Shown one piece after another: positions 42,321 through 48,709 of a DNA stretch of 63,511 nt. Both the position numbers and the translations under genes were made by a program. The stretch is from NCBI RefSeq assembly GCF_001434665.1, contig NZ_AZDG01000014.1:1-63511 (forward strand), written 5' to 3'. Numbering within the stretch: the first letter of the stretch is position 1; every line of letters begins with the position of its first letter. Below the pieces are notes generated by a model. That model saw nothing but the letters and a program-made list of their open reading frames with translations, searched no databases and was not told where the DNA came from. This DNA comes from Companilactobacillus tucceti DSM 20183. Its GTDB lineage: Bacteria; Bacillota; Bacilli; Lactobacillales; Lactobacillaceae.

Positions 42321-43928
42321 TTAACTGTTTCTAGCTAATTTATCAGCCTTTTCAGCCTCATCCACTTTAACTTCATACCAACCGAGTAACCGTTTGATAT
42401 TAGAAAGTGCTTGTTCAGATGAAAGTATACTTAGCAACAAAATGCAAGGGAGATACTGTATCAAATAACGGCTACGTCCACCTTCAAATAGTAATAAAAA
42501 CATGAATCCGCCGACCAATGATAATTTCAATATTCGAACAAAGTCATTTCTTTGACCAAAACCTAATGCAATCGTTACTAACAAGACTATCCACCATAAT
42601 TGGGCCGTAAATCTAAAATCTGCGATATTTCTACCATATAGATATATAAAGTTCTTTAATTTATTAGTAATACCTTTATCACTCGGCTTTTGATTCTCTA
42701 GGAAAAAGTGGCCTTCTTTTAGCCAGCCAAAAGTTCCATCAGCTGTATTGTTTCGTTGTTTCAGAATCAGAAATTTAAAATAACCCCAAGGGCCAAGTTG
42801 TTTAAGCCTCTTTTTAAGCATATTAACGGAGTATTCAGATTTCTGCTTCTCAGTCGGTATAAAAGTCATTGCCACGGCCTGATGCCAGTCATATCCACCT
42901 TGTCCGTATACTCCCATAGCCATAAAATGAATAGCTGGAATAGAACGAGACTTATCAATTTCGATATATGTTTGATTTTGTATTTTATCATTGGCAACTT
43001 TATAAGTAGCGCCACCGCTGACTCCAATTAGTAATAGTGCTGAAAAAATCAATACTACACCTTGCATCGTAAAGTGCTTTTTCTTGATCAACCAATTCAA
43101 TAAGCCAATAATTACAATTGCAACTACGGGAATAATAGCAGATGGCTTTACAAAATATACTAAAACAGCACTAAATCCAAATACTAATCCCGCTAAAACA
43201 AAGGACAACTGCTCCATTGGCGTCTTCATTTTTGCGGTTTTATGCATTACAAAATAACAAAATAAATACAGCGAAACTAGTGGAAGTGACCAAGCGTCTG
43301 TATAAGGCATGATAATCGTTGGAAAAACCATCAACCAAGCACAATGCATATAGATGGCTGTCCCTAATAGTTTCTTTCTAATGAGCCAAATACTCAATAA
43401 ATTAAGTGCCGCCGATACATCAACAGTAACTAACGTCACATAATCAAAAAATAACCAAGATGTTTGACCACTTAAAGTAACCAACCAATGCATGAACAAC
43501 ATTATCGGCAAGTTATTTTGGTTAAGACTAAAATAACTAGTTACATCAACCTCTTGAGCATGTTTAACACTTGTAGCTGCATGTAACAACATCCCCGAAT
43601 CAAATCCACTCGTTGGATGACAAAATGTAACAAAAAATATTTGACCAAGAACTACTAAAAATAAAATAAAACTACTAGTCCTTATCTGATGAGTTATAAA
43701 AACATTGTAAAACCAAGCTCTTATACTTGGATACGCGTAAATCATAACGCATATTGCCACAATAAAAATAATAAGTCCGGTCGTTAACATAGTTGTACTA
43801 GTCCCAAACGTATCATTGTCACCAAGAATGATATTTACTGAGGTTAACGCAAAAAAGAGAGTCAGAAAAAATAAGACTCTCCAAAATATATTGATCACTG
43901 AATTACTAAAATTATAAAGTCTACGCAT
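42321..43928 (-). CDS. XrtG-associated polytopic glycosyltransferase (GT-C like, TIGR03766 type)
   Basis: 535-residue membrane protein with about 12 helices. FVTFCHPTSGFDSGMLLHAA near 97-116, in the first large outer loop after helix 3, carries the acidic residue expected for GT-C enzymes using lipid-linked sugars. The C-terminal GGRSRYLIQYLPCILLL matches the dolichol-phosphate-mannose mannosyltransferase-like group found with XrtG. Last gene of the operon; its start overlaps the PTPS gene by eight bases. Sugar and acceptor unknown. Confidence 0.82.
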   Translation of the reverse strand: MRRLYNFSNSVINIFWRVLFFLTLFFALTSVNIILGDNDTFGTSTTMLTTGLIIFIVAICVMIYAYPSIRAWFYNVFITHQIRTSSFILFLVVLGQIFFVTFCHPTSGFDSGMLLHAATSVKHAQEVDVTSYFSLNQNNLPIMLFMHWLVTLSGQTSWLFFDYVTLVTVDVSAALNLLSIWLIRKKLLGTAIYMHCAWLMVFPTIIMPYTDAWSLPLVSLYLFCYFVMHKTAKMKTPMEQLSFVLAGLVFGFSAVLVYFVKPSAIIPVVAIVIIGLLNWLIKKKHFTMQGVVLIFSALLLIGVSGGATYKVANDKIQNQTYIEIDKSRSIPAIHFMAMGVYGQGGYDWHQAVAMTFIPTEKQKSEYSVNMLKKRLKQLGPWGYFKFLILKQRNNTADGTFGWLKEGHFFLENQKPSDKGITNKLKNFIYLYGRNIADFRFTAQLWWIVLLVTIALGFGQRNDFVRILKLSLVGGFMFLLLFEGGRSRYLIQYLPCILLLSILSSEQALSNIKRLLGWYEVKVDEAEKADKLARNS

Positions 43929-44361
43929 CTGGTTTTTCCTGTTGTTTTTGTTCAGATTTAGTTTCTGCTTCTACCTCTGCCTCAGTTGGCAAAGTTCTTT
44001 CCGTAATATCTATACAATATGCACGTGTAGGAGAATCACTGACTTCGATTCTCATCAACATAGCGCCATTTGCACGCAATATTGCATCGATTTCATTAAA
44101 GAGATATTCCGTTACATTTTCAACTGTTGGATTAACAACTTTGAATTCAGGCAAATCATTTAAGAATTTACCAGACAAAGCATCAATGGCTCGATGCAAT
44201 GATTTTTCGATATCAAAGAAAGAAACCATTCCTTCAAATACATGCAATTCGCAAGTTATTTCCCAAGTATGGTTATGTTTCTTACCAGTACCTGACTTCC
44301 AACGCACCGCATGACTGGCATTAACATACGATTTAATTTTATATGATCGTTGTTTTACCAT
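43921..44361 (-). CDS. 6-carboxytetrahydropterin synthase-like (PTPS) protein of the XrtG cluster
   Basis: 146 residues with the tunnelling-fold PTPS/QueD core: zinc His17 (NASHAVRW) and His29-x-His31 (KKHNHTWEI), the later NPTVENVTEYLF, and a final Glu-containing segment. The catalytic Cys that lies four residues before the H-x-H in QueD is a Thr (T25), so usual pterin chemistry is doubtful. The last 25 residues are a Glu/Gln/Lys-rich tail. It matches the PTPS relative known beside XrtG (TIGR03112). GGGAG precedes the ATG, 3 bases after the glycosyltransferase gene. Confidence 0.84.
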   Translation of the reverse strand: MVKQRSYKIKSYVNASHAVRWKSGTGKKHNHTWEITCELHVFEGMVSFFDIEKSLHRAIDALSGKFLNDLPEFKVVNPTVENVTEYLFNEIDAILRANGAMLMRIEVSDSPTRAYCIDITERTLPTEAEVEAETKSEQKQQEKPDA

Positions 44362-44364
44362 GAA

Positions 44365-45720
44365 TTATTCTCCCTTTCTATCCTTTTTTCGCTGCTCTCT
44401 TATTGTCTGAATGTCATCTTTAACAACATTTTTCAATTGACTCATTTCAGTATTAATACCACGCATACCCCAAGAAGCTTTGGTAGTCATAGCATTAATA
44501 ATTCCTATCAAACGAATCCATGAACAAATAAATACATAAATCGGCAAAGTTAAAGTTACCCACCAAAGACGCACATAATAATGTTGTTCTTTAGGGTACT
44601 TTCGTAAAAGGATACTTACACTAATATAATTGACGACTGCCACAAAAACATATAGCGAATAGATCAGCAAATAAGACAATAAAAGTATCCATGCTGAAAA
44701 TCCAAATGCTATCAATACAAAACTGGCAAAAGTCCAAATCATTCTTGGAAAACTGAAGGTATGATCGATCATCATTCTTCTTACCAAGAAATTATTAAAG
44801 AATCTCTTCAAACCGGCTGACTGTGACATATAGTTGTGGGTGACTTCTAATTCACCACGTTGCCATCTTTGCCGTTGCGTATACAACTCCTTAAAACCAG
44901 AAATAGGTTCAACATAAAAAATTGCATCCGCACAAATAACAACTTTTTTACCTAATCGAGTTCTTATCTGGAAAGTCATATCGGTATCTTCACCGACTGT
45001 ATCAATATCATACAAAAATGTTTCCATTAAAACTTCTCGTCTGAACGCCGAAAAAGCAACCGACATAGTAAATAATTGATCACGAGAAGACTCGATCGTC
45101 CTCCCTGACATAAAGGCTTGGGCATATTCATAGTATTCATTCTTAGCTAAAATACGATGCCAAAATCCCTTTACATTTTGAACCATTTCTTCTTTAGGTA
45201 AAATTGCTCCAGTCATTGCAGCAATACTAAAATCATTTTCAAATCTTAAAACCATATTTTCTACAGCATGAGGTTCAAGTAGACCATCACTATCAATATT
45301 AATAACGTAAGTCCCAATACTCTCATAAATAGCCGTATTCAAGGCCTTAGCTTTACCATTGTCAGTATTTACATAACGTAATATCAACTCAGGAAAGGTA
45401 TTTTGAGCTTTAGCATAGGCACCAAAACTATCATCTGTGCTTTGATTGTTAGCCAAGACAATTTGCATAGCATCTTTTGGATAAGTTTGATTATTTATAG
45501 AACGAATACAGTCAAATAAGGTATCTTCAGAATTATATACTGGAACAATAATGGATACATATGGCCATTTTCCAGGTGGTGTTAACTTCTTTTCATGCAT
45601 GTGCATATGCATCAACTTGATCGTTGAAATAATTGCAGGAATTATCTCAACAACAATGGGAATAAGAGCCCATGTGATCCAAAAACCCATTCTGGTAAGT
45701 GCTAAATTAATCCAGTACAT
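44365..45720 (-). CDS. XrtG-associated family 2 glycosyltransferase (TIGR03111 type)
   Basis: 451 residues. One membrane helix at about 12-36 is followed by a cytoplasmic GT-A domain: VSIIVPVYNSEDTLFDCI, the metal-binding NIDSDG at about 144-149, GEDTDMTFQIR as the catalytic acid region, and QRQRWQRGE, the Q-x-x-R-W motif of processive glycosyltransferases. Then come three to four helices (about 315-410). The ATG shares a base with the xrtG stop (TAATG). This resembles hyaluronan or cellulose synthase-type enzymes, so a polymer is possible. Product unknown. Confidence 0.88.
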   Translation of the reverse strand: MYWINLALTRMGFWITWALIPIVVEIIPAIISTIKLMHMHMHEKKLTPPGKWPYVSIIVPVYNSEDTLFDCIRSINNQTYPKDAMQIVLANNQSTDDSFGAYAKAQNTFPELILRYVNTDNGKAKALNTAIYESIGTYVINIDSDGLLEPHAVENMVLRFENDFSIAAMTGAILPKEEMVQNVKGFWHRILAKNEYYEYAQAFMSGRTIESSRDQLFTMSVAFSAFRREVLMETFLYDIDTVGEDTDMTFQIRTRLGKKVVICADAIFYVEPISGFKELYTQRQRWQRGELEVTHNYMSQSAGLKRFFNNFLVRRMMIDHTFSFPRMIWTFASFVLIAFGFSAWILLLSYLLIYSLYVFVAVVNYISVSILLRKYPKEQHYYVRLWWVTLTLPIYVFICSWIRLIGIINAMTTKASWGMRGINTEMSQLKNVVKDDIQTIREQRKKDRKGE

Positions 45721-46319
45721 TACTTCTTTTTACCCCTCCAATCTATAAACTGTCGATAAATTCCACGTGCTAATTGAGAGTACGTGAAAACGTTATAATA
45801 CAATGCAATGACTAATACGTAGAACACTAGTCGTCCGATAACTGAATGGGCCAAGAAAAATGACTGTCCACCCATAAAATGAACGATTGCAATAACTAAT
45901 ATCAATCTCAAAACATTGATCATATATATATATACTAATCCAAAAATAGCATAGAACACTTTTTCTTTACGTTCATACATTGGAAAGAAAACGACCAATG
46001 AGACGAACGCACACGTTTCAATAATTCCTGAACATTCATAATCTATCGACATAATTACTGGATTATGACCGTTAGTTATATACACTAGACCTGTTTTTAA
46101 CATAACCGTTGTCCAGCCAGTAATTTTATTAAATATGTCTACACCATGAATAACTGCATGTGTAAAAAACCAGACCCAATATGGTCGGCTTATTGCCATT
46201 AAAATAAAGAAAAGTCCAGCACTACCAACAATAAAGAAGAAAGCAGATAACTGGGCTCGCTTTAGTACTGACAACATGTACAACCACACTACAATTCCTA
46301 GCAGGATGTATACGTTCAT
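45720..46319 (-). CDS. xrtG: Exosortase family protein XrtG
   Basis: 199-residue membrane protein with six to seven helices. The exosortase/archaeosortase catalytic triad is visible: Cys96 in SIDYECSGII, Arg138 in INVLRLILVIAI, and His158 in LAHSVIGRLVFY. It should cut the C-terminal sorting signal of the protein encoded just upstream (46356-47540) and attach it to an unknown acceptor. Second gene of a five-gene operon with two glycosyltransferases and a PTPS-like protein. The system is known from computational work; I know of no experimental proof of its reaction. Confidence 0.92.
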   Translation of the reverse strand: MNVYILLGIVVWLYMLSVLKRAQLSAFFFIVGSAGLFFILMAISRPYWVWFFTHAVIHGVDIFNKITGWTTVMLKTGLVYITNGHNPVIMSIDYECSGIIETCAFVSLVVFFPMYERKEKVFYAIFGLVYIYMINVLRLILVIAIVHFMGGQSFFLAHSVIGRLVFYVLVIALYYNVFTYSQLARGIYRQFIDWRGKKK

Positions 46320-46355
46320 TTAACATCAGTCCTATTATTTAATTTATCTAACAAA

Positions 46356-47540
46356 CTATTTACCAGAGATACGTGATTCTTTACGCTTCAAGTATCCAGC
46401 TTTCTTTAGTTTGACATAACCGAATCCAGCAATTAAAACTCCTACTCCAGAAATCAAAAGTGGACCAGTTGAACCACCAGAAGTTGTAACACTTTTGGCA
46501 CCGATACTAGGATTATCGATAGTAACAGTTTGCCCGATCATTGTTGAGACATCTAACTTGCTGACATCTATTCTAAATTCGCCGACATTATTATCACCAT
46601 TATTTGTAACATAACCGTTTCCGACTACCCCGTAGGATTTATCTCCATGATAATCTCCGGCTTGTAGATCAACTGCCTTAGTTTGTCCTTTATCTAGACT
46701 GCTTGGCATATTTTTTGAAAATACGGAGAACTTTTTATCACCAAAAGTAAGGTTGTATTCACCTTCACCTGGCACCATACCATATTTCATTTTTACATAG
46801 AAATAAACATAATGACCATCACTGACTAGGGCAATATATCCACCGTAGCCTTCTGTTAATTGGATATTTTTCCAATCTTCATATTTACCATCAATAACAA
46901 TATTTAAATTATCATTTGTATTATTAGCATTAGCGTCAGTAGGTGTGTCACCTTTTTCGCTTTTATCTGCTTTACCGGTCACAGTACCAACAGCATCTTT
47001 TCCACCCACTGAAGCGATGGTTGTAGTAGCAGCATCGTTACCAATGTTAGAGTTTGTCATTGAGATTTCTTTACCAACATCAGAATCTGGTAAATTGAAT
47101 TTACTCAAATCTATTCTAAATTCACCAACATCATGTCCATCTTCTTTAGAAACATATCCGGTACCGACTGTACCATACTGTGTTCCGTCGTAGTCGGATC
47201 CACCAGTGATACTGATTTGTTTTGGTTCATCACTACTTGTATCAGGGAACCAGGCATGATACTTTTTACCATCAATATTGAAAATGTAATCTCCATGACC
47301 AGGAACAGCAGCATATTTCATCTTAACGTAAACATCGATATATTGACCGTCACTTACCATCGATGTGTAACCGTTATAACCCTCAACTAATTTAGCATCT
47401 TTCCAATCCGAAAATTGACCGTCAATTGTAACTGAACTAGCGTCAGACGCAGCATTTGCAACTGAAGGTGTGAAAAACGCACTGGTTCCAGCAAATCCTA
47501 AAAGAATTGCACCGAGTACTATCATTTTACGTAATTTCAT
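46356..47540 (-). CDS. Firmicu-CTERM sorting domain protein, XrtG substrate
   Basis: 394 residues. The signal peptide ends at SVANA (about 30). Two tandem homologous beta domains lie at about 36-180 and 213-352. Each opens with IDG-x-x-x-DW (VTIDGQFSDW; IVIDGKYEDW), continues SDG-x-Y and YVKMKY, and ends VGEFRID(L/V)SK, similar to CBM9/DOMON-like sugar-binding folds. A Thr/Asn/Asp-rich linker (181-212) separates them. The C-terminus is a Firmicu-CTERM signal: GGSTGP, one helix at 360-377, then a basic tail KLKKAGYLKRKESR. AAAGGAGGGGG precedes the ATG. First gene of the xrtG operon, 36 bases before xrtG. Confidence 0.88.
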   Translation of the reverse strand: MKLRKMIVLGAILLGFAGTSAFFTPSVANAASDASSVTIDGQFSDWKDAKLVEGYNGYTSMVSDGQYIDVYVKMKYAAVPGHGDYIFNIDGKKYHAWFPDTSSDEPKQISITGGSDYDGTQYGTVGTGYVSKEDGHDVGEFRIDLSKFNLPDSDVGKEISMTNSNIGNDAATTTIASVGGKDAVGTVTGKADKSEKGDTPTDANANNTNDNLNIVIDGKYEDWKNIQLTEGYGGYIALVSDGHYVYFYVKMKYGMVPGEGEYNLTFGDKKFSVFSKNMPSSLDKGQTKAVDLQAGDYHGDKSYGVVGNGYVTNNGDNNVGEFRIDVSKLDVSTMIGQTVTIDNPSIGAKSVTTSGGSTGPLLISGVGVLIAGFGYVKLKKAGYLKRKESRISGK

Positions 47541-47883: not shown

Positions 47884-48636
47884 TTATTGCATCTCTTCAC
47901 GATCATTGAATCCATGAATGGTTCTGTAAACTCGTAAGTTTGCTAACCCTACATCACGGACATTTTCAATCGTCACTTTACGACTAGCACTATCTTTCCT
48001 ATTAACGTAATGGTACAGAGGTAAATTATCTAAGTAGAATTTGTGTGCAAGAGTTGCATACTCCACATTAAAAACTTCATCTTCCATCAAATCTAAGTCA
48101 GTTTGAAAGCTAAGATTATTTTCTTTAATAATGGAAGTTTTATAAGCCTTATTCCAAGTATATCCCATGACTGTTCCATTGATTTTAATAATCTGTTTAA
48201 TAGCTTCATCGCGATCAACAAAACCATTTTGACGATCAAGTTTTTTATTTTTTAATTTTCCATTCTCATTAAAGAAGCCGCAAGTAGCGAGATCAATATC
48301 ATACTTATTAAAAAGACCAAGAAAAAAGTCAACGTAATCTGGCTCAATGTAGTCATCTCCGTCAACAAAAGTAACTAAATCAGTATCAACTGCTTGTAGT
48401 CCGGAATTTCTAGCTGCCGAAACCCCAGCATTTTGAGCATGATAAATAACTTTGATCCAGTCATATTTTTCTTCATATTTTTTGATAATATCCAATGTAT
48501 TATCGGTAGAACAATCATCAACAATTATCAATTTGAAATTTTTATTAGTTTGTTCAATGATTGAGTCGATTGTTTTTGAAATATAGTCAGCAACGTTATA
48601 CGCTGATACAATAATTGAAAGTTTATTTTCTGCCAT
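47884..48636 (-). CDS. Family 2 glycosyltransferase
   Basis: 250-residue soluble GT-A transferase. LSIIVSAYNVADYISKTIDSI at the start, VDDCSTDNT as the nucleotide-sugar site, and FVDGDDYIEPDY with the metal-binding D-x-D at about 91-96. It ends with DNLPLYHYVNRKDSAS, the usual tail of EpsJ/WaaE-like proteins. It has no membrane helix. AAGGTG lies before the ATG at 48636. It precedes the XrtG operon on the same strand but is cut off by a terminator, so a shared role is not certain. Confidence 0.87.
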   Translation of the reverse strand: MAENKLSIIVSAYNVADYISKTIDSIIEQTNKNFKLIIVDDCSTDNTLDIIKKYEEKYDWIKVIYHAQNAGVSAARNSGLQAVDTDLVTFVDGDDYIEPDYVDFFLGLFNKYDIDLATCGFFNENGKLKNKKLDRQNGFVDRDEAIKQIIKINGTVMGYTWNKAYKTSIIKENNLSFQTDLDLMEDEVFNVEYATLAHKFYLDNLPLYHYVNRKDSASRKVTIENVRDVGLANLRVYRTIHGFNDREEMQ

Positions 48637-48709
48637 TAATAAAATCACCTTAATAGCATTTTACTTCTAAAGACCTAATAGACGCAACGAATTATCAGGG
48701 AGGAAAATT

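Follow-up and report, generated by a model that had tools for sequence, protein, structure and literature searches.

Fusion of XrtG to its Firmicu-CTERM partner in a clostridial clade, and a possible membrane-held product of the XrtG operon of Companilactobacillus tucceti

The DNA analyzed here, a window of 63,511 nucleotides from Companilactobacillus tucceti DSM 20183 (contig NZ_AZDG01000014.1), contains an operon of five genes for a Firmicu-CTERM substrate, the exosortase XrtG, a processive-type family 2 glycosyltransferase (GT2), a PTPS-fold protein and a membrane protein of family TIGR03766. The operon is a complete copy of a gene set already catalogued in lactobacilli, whose predicted tasks are to trim a single surface protein and to make a sugar chain next to it; taken alone, it is an ordinary further member of a described system. 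What appears to be new is found among its relatives: in one clostridial clade the substrate domain is fused to an XrtG that has lost its catalytic cysteine. We tentatively propose, at rather less than an even chance, that XrtG of Firmicutes is an assembly factor of a membrane glycan complex that couples a single dedicated beta-domain subunit to an acceptor held at the membrane. In Syntrophomonas and Peptococcaceae, gene fusion would have replaced this joining and made the cysteine unnecessary, and the tethered subunit would be the product of the cysteine-bearing enzymes too. In the open-license literature, neither the acceptor nor the product of a bacterial exosortase is established; the fused lineage limits what the product could be. 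It also makes the question testable: if a fused, cysteine-less protein can replace the separate pair, the function is membrane retention, and if it cannot, release or transfer is essential.

Fused XrtG genes in clostridia

We surveyed 82 loci, 60 of them from the host family Lactobacillaceae (58 genomes, two with two loci each) and 22 from 21 clostridial genomes, which together gave 83 XrtG rows, locus L216 being counted twice. In a clostridial clade comprising Syntrophomonas and its kin, the substrate domain is fused ahead of XrtG in a single open reading frame (ORF) of about 400 residues. Ten such genes occur in nine genomes, one of them (L086) ending at a contig edge. The fused proteins lack the substrate's own C-terminal helix, and the segment GDIQW-PFP (SDNQW-PFP in L086) continues into the first helix of XrtG. 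The catalytic cysteine is replaced in all ten, by asparagine in nine and by serine in one (genome G743). It is kept in 72 of the 73 separate XrtG ORFs, the exception (L216) being a fragment, from a gene with a broken frame, that lacks the motif. Other parts of the active site persist in the fused rows, with the arginine kept in 10/10, the H-x(3)-GR stretch in all nine that reach that far, and E-x-S-G conserved. When two fused proteins were scanned with the XrtG model TIGR03110 they scored 103.1 and 125.3 bits (cut-off 102.75); because both pass, the model is blind to the difference between fused and cysteine-bearing enzymes.

The fused gene appears to carry the only copy of the domain. A genome search found no separate substrate-domain copy in the nine fused genomes, and the domain occurs exactly once in 16 of the 18 clostridial genomes searched and twice in the other two, G718, which has two fused loci, and G739, whose second match is partial. 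PTPS/PF10131 and GT2 neighbors are present in the fused genomes wherever the contig reaches. In the XrtG tree the 12 fused rows form one clade (support 99/95), with one change each for the fusion and for the cysteine. The clade lies nearest to a cysteine-bearing, unfused group of genome family f23, a pairing whose support is only 81/68, and the fused form persists in no fewer than three genome families (f23, f68 and f76). We saw this cysteine-less clade described in no paper of the open-license literature, in which no search was aimed at fusions.

Profile comparisons, whose reversed controls gave E-values of 0.03 or worse, indicate that the clostridial partner is the same domain as the lactobacillar substrate (E 3.1e-10, 96.8%). 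Among the clostridia, separate and fused substrate profiles match at E 9.7e-58. An NCBIfam scan of two separate clostridial substrates named neither of them.

Near XrtG, 14 of the 22 clostridial rows have a PTPS domain joined to PF10131 in one gene, and in one row the two are encoded separately; the remaining rows have one or neither of them within the stretch inspected. The PTPS-PF10131 gene is divided between two ORFs in Syntrophomonas wolfei subsp. methylbutyratica (L128, 4502-8004), unlike the relative L127, where it is a single ORF.

More fused genes with asparagine were seen in Peptococcaceae bacterium BRH_c4b and, as a broken copy, in Desulforamulus putei (L133, 1692-8867). The D. putei gene is cut in its 5' part by an apparent phage segment, judged by eye from tail-like ORFs and an adjoining reverse-transcriptase-like ORF. 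One Thermincola genome has XrtG and GT2 in one ORF of 482 residues (L145, 8515-9963), of which both parts look shortened; the ORF may have arisen by deletion and not be a functional fusion.

One enzyme and one substrate

A substrate domain lies upstream of XrtG, or is fused to it, in all 83 rows of the survey. For 66 of the 73 separate XrtG ORFs, the substrate domain ends at most 400 nt from the XrtG start. The seven exceptions have a TIGR03766-type gene in between (L056, L061 and L122), a longer gap (L057), an overlong XrtG start (L077) or broken genes (L215 and L216). The exact gene order of the window, substrate-XrtG-GT2-PTPS-TIGR03766, recurs in 26 of the 61 family rows; in the others a gene has been lost, duplicated or moved, and some rows end at a contig edge.

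The same association holds for whole genomes. We searched 301 Lactobacillaceae genomes for matches over cut-off with four of the five family profiles. TIGR03110 was found in 58 genomes, TIGR03111 in 57, TIGR04145 in 58 and TIGR03766 in 56. Of the 58 XrtG genomes, 57 have the GT2, 57 a substrate and 53 the TIGR03766 protein, and all four families occur together in 51 of the 301. The overlap of XrtG with each of the other three has a hypergeometric p < 1e-48, a value overstated by the relatedness of the genomes. The association of these four families is not due to chance. The one XrtG genome in which no TIGR04145 match reaches the cut-off, G104, encodes a divergent substrate close by, separated from XrtG by a TIGR03766-type gene; another genome (G229) has a substrate and no XrtG match anywhere in it. 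The sequence-only reading, an earlier annotation of this DNA made from its letters alone, had taken enzyme, substrate and glycosyltransferases to be one functional unit and had called for a comparison of gene neighborhoods across lactobacilli. That comparison places a substrate domain ahead of XrtG, or within its gene, in every row, and with the family scores and the co-occurrence it supports such a unit.

We also looked for further substrates in the genome of C. tucceti itself, covering 2.17 Mb in 51 contigs. Searches with the TIGR04145 profile, for the tail and for the motif-coding pattern indicate that it holds one substrate gene, and the tail search found the operon gene alone. A second match to the GGSTGP-coding pattern was rejected, as it sits inside a protein with an LPXTG-like end and is not an XrtG substrate. 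We read these patterns as XrtG probably serving one partner.

In three genomes of the same genus (G229, G128 and G175), an additional or orphan Firmicu-CTERM gene with an intact GGSTGP tail was seen at a second site (L217, 5503-6144; L218, 11193-11834; L219, 4232-4873). This site is conserved, lies 4-5 kb from a TIGR03766-type gene and has no XrtG within the stretch.

Beyond the host family, 13 of 398 genomes in a phylum sample match TIGR03110 (G000 included), nine of them over cut-off, as do 14 of 63 genomes in the order of G315, 13 over cut-off. A weak match in G408 (23.6 bits) was left out of all counts. A scan of named organisms covered the best 80 of 111 relatives with a pattern that admits only cysteine or asparagine at the active site, and it was therefore not used for the cysteine statistics. 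XrtG relatives extend beyond Firmicutes, since the named loci include Chloroflexota such as Tepidiforma. XrtG-like genes with the cysteine and a downstream GT2 were observed there, in Tepidiforma and Dehalococcoidia (L140, L147, L148, L149 and L158), and the ORFs upstream of the XrtG-like gene in L140, L147, L149 and L158 end in a helix and basic tail segment. The Tepidiforma protein of L147 scores 79.9 bits, below the XrtG cut-off. N-terminal extensions of the Chloroflexota XrtG in L147 and L148 were considered as fusions and rejected, as they look like out-of-frame upstream DNA.

Retention or release of the substrate

We give roughly even chances to a full mechanism in which membrane retention of the substrate is the useful end state. 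The substrate would be exported and held in the membrane by its C-terminal helix and basic tail. XrtG would attack the GGSTGP region through Cys96, aided by Arg138 and His158, and the helix would be lost. The new C-terminus would pass from XrtG to an acceptor that stays at the membrane, either a lipid or a lipid-linked glycan made by the GT2, PTPS-like and TIGR03766 proteins, and the two-domain substrate would then work on the outer side of the membrane beside the glycan machinery.

The thioester chemistry and the lipid-type acceptor are suggested by analogy with the archaeosortase A/PGF-CTERM system of Haloferax volcanii. In the model proposed there, which its authors call speculative, an aminolipid resolves a thioester on the active-site cysteine (PMC7157517). 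The superfamily model TIGR04178 also matches the window XrtG (62.1 bits, cut-off 23). Unlike archaeosortase A, however, the window XrtG has one substrate in its own operon together with dedicated glycosyltransferases, and comparison of the five operon genes with NCBIfam and Pfam gave no lipid-synthesis family over cut-off. The likeness to sortase A and LPXTG proteins lies in the tripartite C-terminal signal, and the window motif also holds a T-G pair, but the window enzyme matches exosortase and archaeosortase families and no sortase family in the same two collections.

That retention rather than release may be the end state is suggested by the fused clade, whose sequences indicate that the rest of the system can be retained when the domain is permanently fixed to the membrane. 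The membrane-anchoring part of this reading is not new, since lasting membrane anchorage of exosortase products is already a general suggestion in the literature (PMC11980579).

A classical sorting pathway, in which XrtG would cleave the substrate and free it from the membrane by linking it to the cell wall or an exported polysaccharide, comes nearest to the picture drawn by the sequence-only reading. We consider it doubtful, although several observations fit it. A GT2 with the Q[RQ]xRW motif adjoins XrtG, and the two co-occur nearly without exception, as described above. PEP-CTERM exosortases provide a precedent, as they occur beside exopolysaccharide genes (PMC1569441), and in Lactiplantibacillus plantarum the genes of the XrtG system are expressed together with cell-wall genes (PMC12854382). 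The window system shares the association with exopolysaccharide-type genes with the EpsH/PEP-CTERM systems of Gram-negative bacteria, and its XrtG has a weak match to Pfam Exosortase_EpsH (20.1 bits, gathering threshold 25.7). It differs from them in that PEP-CTERM genomes can hold many substrates, 65 in Verrucomicrobium spinosum and a single one in one genome (PMC1569441), whereas the window genome has one. The fused clade argues against classical sorting: its sole substrate domain is covalently part of a cysteine-less XrtG, which has no cysteine chemistry with which to release it, and GT2 and PTPS/PF10131 nevertheless persist. Release by the enzyme's cysteine is thus not needed in that clade. 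This speaks in part against a reading in which the substrate is sorted and shipped out. Of the earlier picture, in which the substrate is cut, moved to a lipid or glycan and glycosylated by its own enzymes, the glycosylation of the substrate itself, and its transfer to a glycan instead of a lipid, are conjectural.

A different objection is that the fused, cysteine-less protein may be a pseudoenzyme that has taken on a new scaffold role, and would then be silent on the product of the cysteine-bearing XrtG. The single origin of the fusion and the change from cysteine to asparagine in nine genes and serine in one would be expected in that case. We nevertheless regard a pseudoenzyme as unlikely, given that the fused rows conserve the arginine, the histidine and both the E-x-S-G and the H-x(3)-GR stretch, and that the neighboring genes of the system have been kept. 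It is very improbable that XrtG mainly assembles or exports the glycan, with the Firmicu-CTERM protein merely a guide that it holds: the tight XrtG-GT2 linkage and the covalent fusion in one clade would agree with this, but in separate substrates the motif, the helix and the basic tail are all strongly conserved, as would be expected if these proteins are processed.

Several points weigh against retention as the common end state. The association between fusion and loss of the cysteine is perfect, but it represents one evolutionary event, because the fused rows form one clade. That clade is clostridial and far from the window, and the lactobacillar substrate profile matches the fused profile more weakly (E 4.3e-5, 69% probability) than it matches the clostridial substrate profile. 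The fused XrtG may have a new role, and its final state need not equal that of the cysteine-bearing enzyme. In four loci the PF10131 ORF ends in a substrate complete with its C-terminal tail; this part matches separate clostridial substrates at E 7.1e-37 and the lactobacillar substrates over 26 columns only. These fusions (PTPS-PF10131-substrate in L046, L052 and L053; PF10131-substrate in L054) might seem to prove that the substrate is tethered for good, a reading we rejected: in 4/4 the substrate part follows a segment that resembles a signal peptide and has an apparent cleavage site. The fusion may thus separate after synthesis, and proves little. The predicted model of the window substrate (mean pLDDT 74.7) shows two regions rich in beta structure, with a longer helix at either end, and a comparison with PDB structures found no diagnostic relative that would explain the domain. 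Finally, we found no biochemistry of the XrtG/Firmicu-CTERM family in the open-license literature, where a single paper uses the names XrtG or Firmicu-CTERM and reports gene expression; within those limits this agrees with the earlier view that neither the acceptor nor the cleavage site nor the glycan of the Firmicutes type has been demonstrated.

The operon of the window

All five minus-strand ORFs of the operon were recovered, with their translations, at the ends that the sequence-only reading had given, and the names it had proposed for them held up. Each gene exceeds the curated NCBIfam cut-off of the family named for it, the exosortase gene included (Table 1); NCBIfam assignments compare bit scores with the curated cut-off, and Pfam assignments with the gathering threshold. 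From substrate to TIGR03766 gene, the intervals are a 36-nt gap, a 1-nt overlap, a 3-nt gap and an 8-nt overlap. The operon is a further member of a known system, because that system is already annotated in L. plantarum, where LP_RS09090-LP_RS09075 are listed as substrate, exosortase G and two XrtG-associated glycosyltransferases (PMC12854382). The window shares these four genes and adds a PTPS-like gene between the two glycosyltransferases, in a host of another genus. A proteome table of Levilactobacillus brevis lists one exosortase-G-associated GT2 (PMC8951740).

Table 1. Features of the XrtG operon in the window, in order of position, with the evidence for each.
Feature	Position	Strand	Basis
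XrtG-associated membrane transferase, 535 aa, about 9 hydrophobic segments	42321..43928	-	TIGR03766, 713.9 bits, cut-off 500
PTPS-fold protein, 146 aa	43921..44361	-	TIGR03112, 124.7 bits, cut-off 69.35
Processive-type GT2 glycosyltransferase, 451 aa	44365..45720	-	TIGR03111, 676.9 bits, cut-off 363.95
XrtG exosortase, 199 aa	45720..46319	-	TIGR03110, 254.1 bits, cut-off 102.75
His158 codon	45846..45848	-	invariant, 23 rows
Arg138 codon	45906..45908	-	invariant, 23 rows
Catalytic Cys96 codon	46032..46034	-	alignments
Firmicu-CTERM substrate, 394 aa	46356..47540	-	TIGR04145, 232.9 bits, cut-off 50
Substrate domain copy 2, with sorting motif	46398..46901	-	TIGR04145, E 3.4e-47
GGSTGP motif, residues 355-360, likely cleavage region	46461..46478	-	alignment of 31 substrates
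Substrate domain copy 1	47004..47432	-	TIGR04145, E 1.8e-23
Substrate signal peptide, residues 1-30, ends ANA/AS	47451..47540	-	translation by eye; hydrophobic segment 6-24

In the substrate, a signal peptide precedes two tandem beta-rich domains, the GGSTGP motif, a hydrophobic helix and a basic tail. In the 31 aligned substrates G355 and S357 are invariant, and G356, T358, G359 and P360 nearly so. The C-terminal hydrophobic segment spans residues 358-376, followed by the basic tail, as read from the translation. Sequence matches of the substrate in the PDB were weak and unrelated.

For XrtG, the assignment of Cys96, Arg138 and His158 was confirmed by an alignment of 23 rows, in which the cysteine is kept in 21 and the other two residues in all. 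A sequence search of the PDB found no relatives of the window XrtG. In the tree, the XrtG nearest to it is that of genome G003, from the same genus.

The window GT2 carries QRQRW. The loci contain 104 GT2 ORFs, of which 84 score at least 250 bits, and 81 of these 84 have Q[RQ]xRW. Its PDB sequence matches are GT2 enzymes. Against TIGR03937, the model of the PgaC_IcaA poly-GlcNAc synthases, it scores 115.9 bits, far below the cut-off of 422.3, and it falls outside that family.

In QueD and PTPS enzymes, the catalytic cysteine presumably lies a few residues before the HxH zinc motif. We counted motifs in 63 of 68 PTPS domains, the other five being too short. HxH and an upstream histidine are present in 63/63, and a cysteine within eight residues before HxH in 0/63; the window protein likewise keeps the zinc histidines and has no cysteine in that interval. 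Pterin-synthase chemistry is therefore unlikely for the PTPS-like protein, judging from the lack of the expected cysteine in every domain counted. The window protein also falls short of QueD/PTPS membership, at 31.1 bits against a QueD cut-off of 89.25, and its PDB sequence matches are weak ones to PTPS and QueD.

The TIGR03766 gene had been described as a GT-C type transferase, a label we could not confirm. A Pfam search of the protein found no match, and its PDB sequence matches were weak and unrelated. PF10131 is placed in the GT-C clan (PMC7801869), but the profile comparison of TIGR03766 with PF10131 gave E 0.054, and the reversed control 0.044. The label is thus unproven for the window gene, because TIGR03766 lacks a profile link to PF10131 beyond that control.

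A promoter scan found 21 candidates against 29.9 expected in shuffles and was uninformative. Upstream of the operon, on the same strand, lies an extra small GT2 gene (47884-48648) that has no hydrophobic segments and whose best NCBIfam matches, PRK10073 and TuaG, are both below cut-off. A GT2 ORF of similar size is also found upstream in three other Companilactobacillus loci (L157, L163 and L169).

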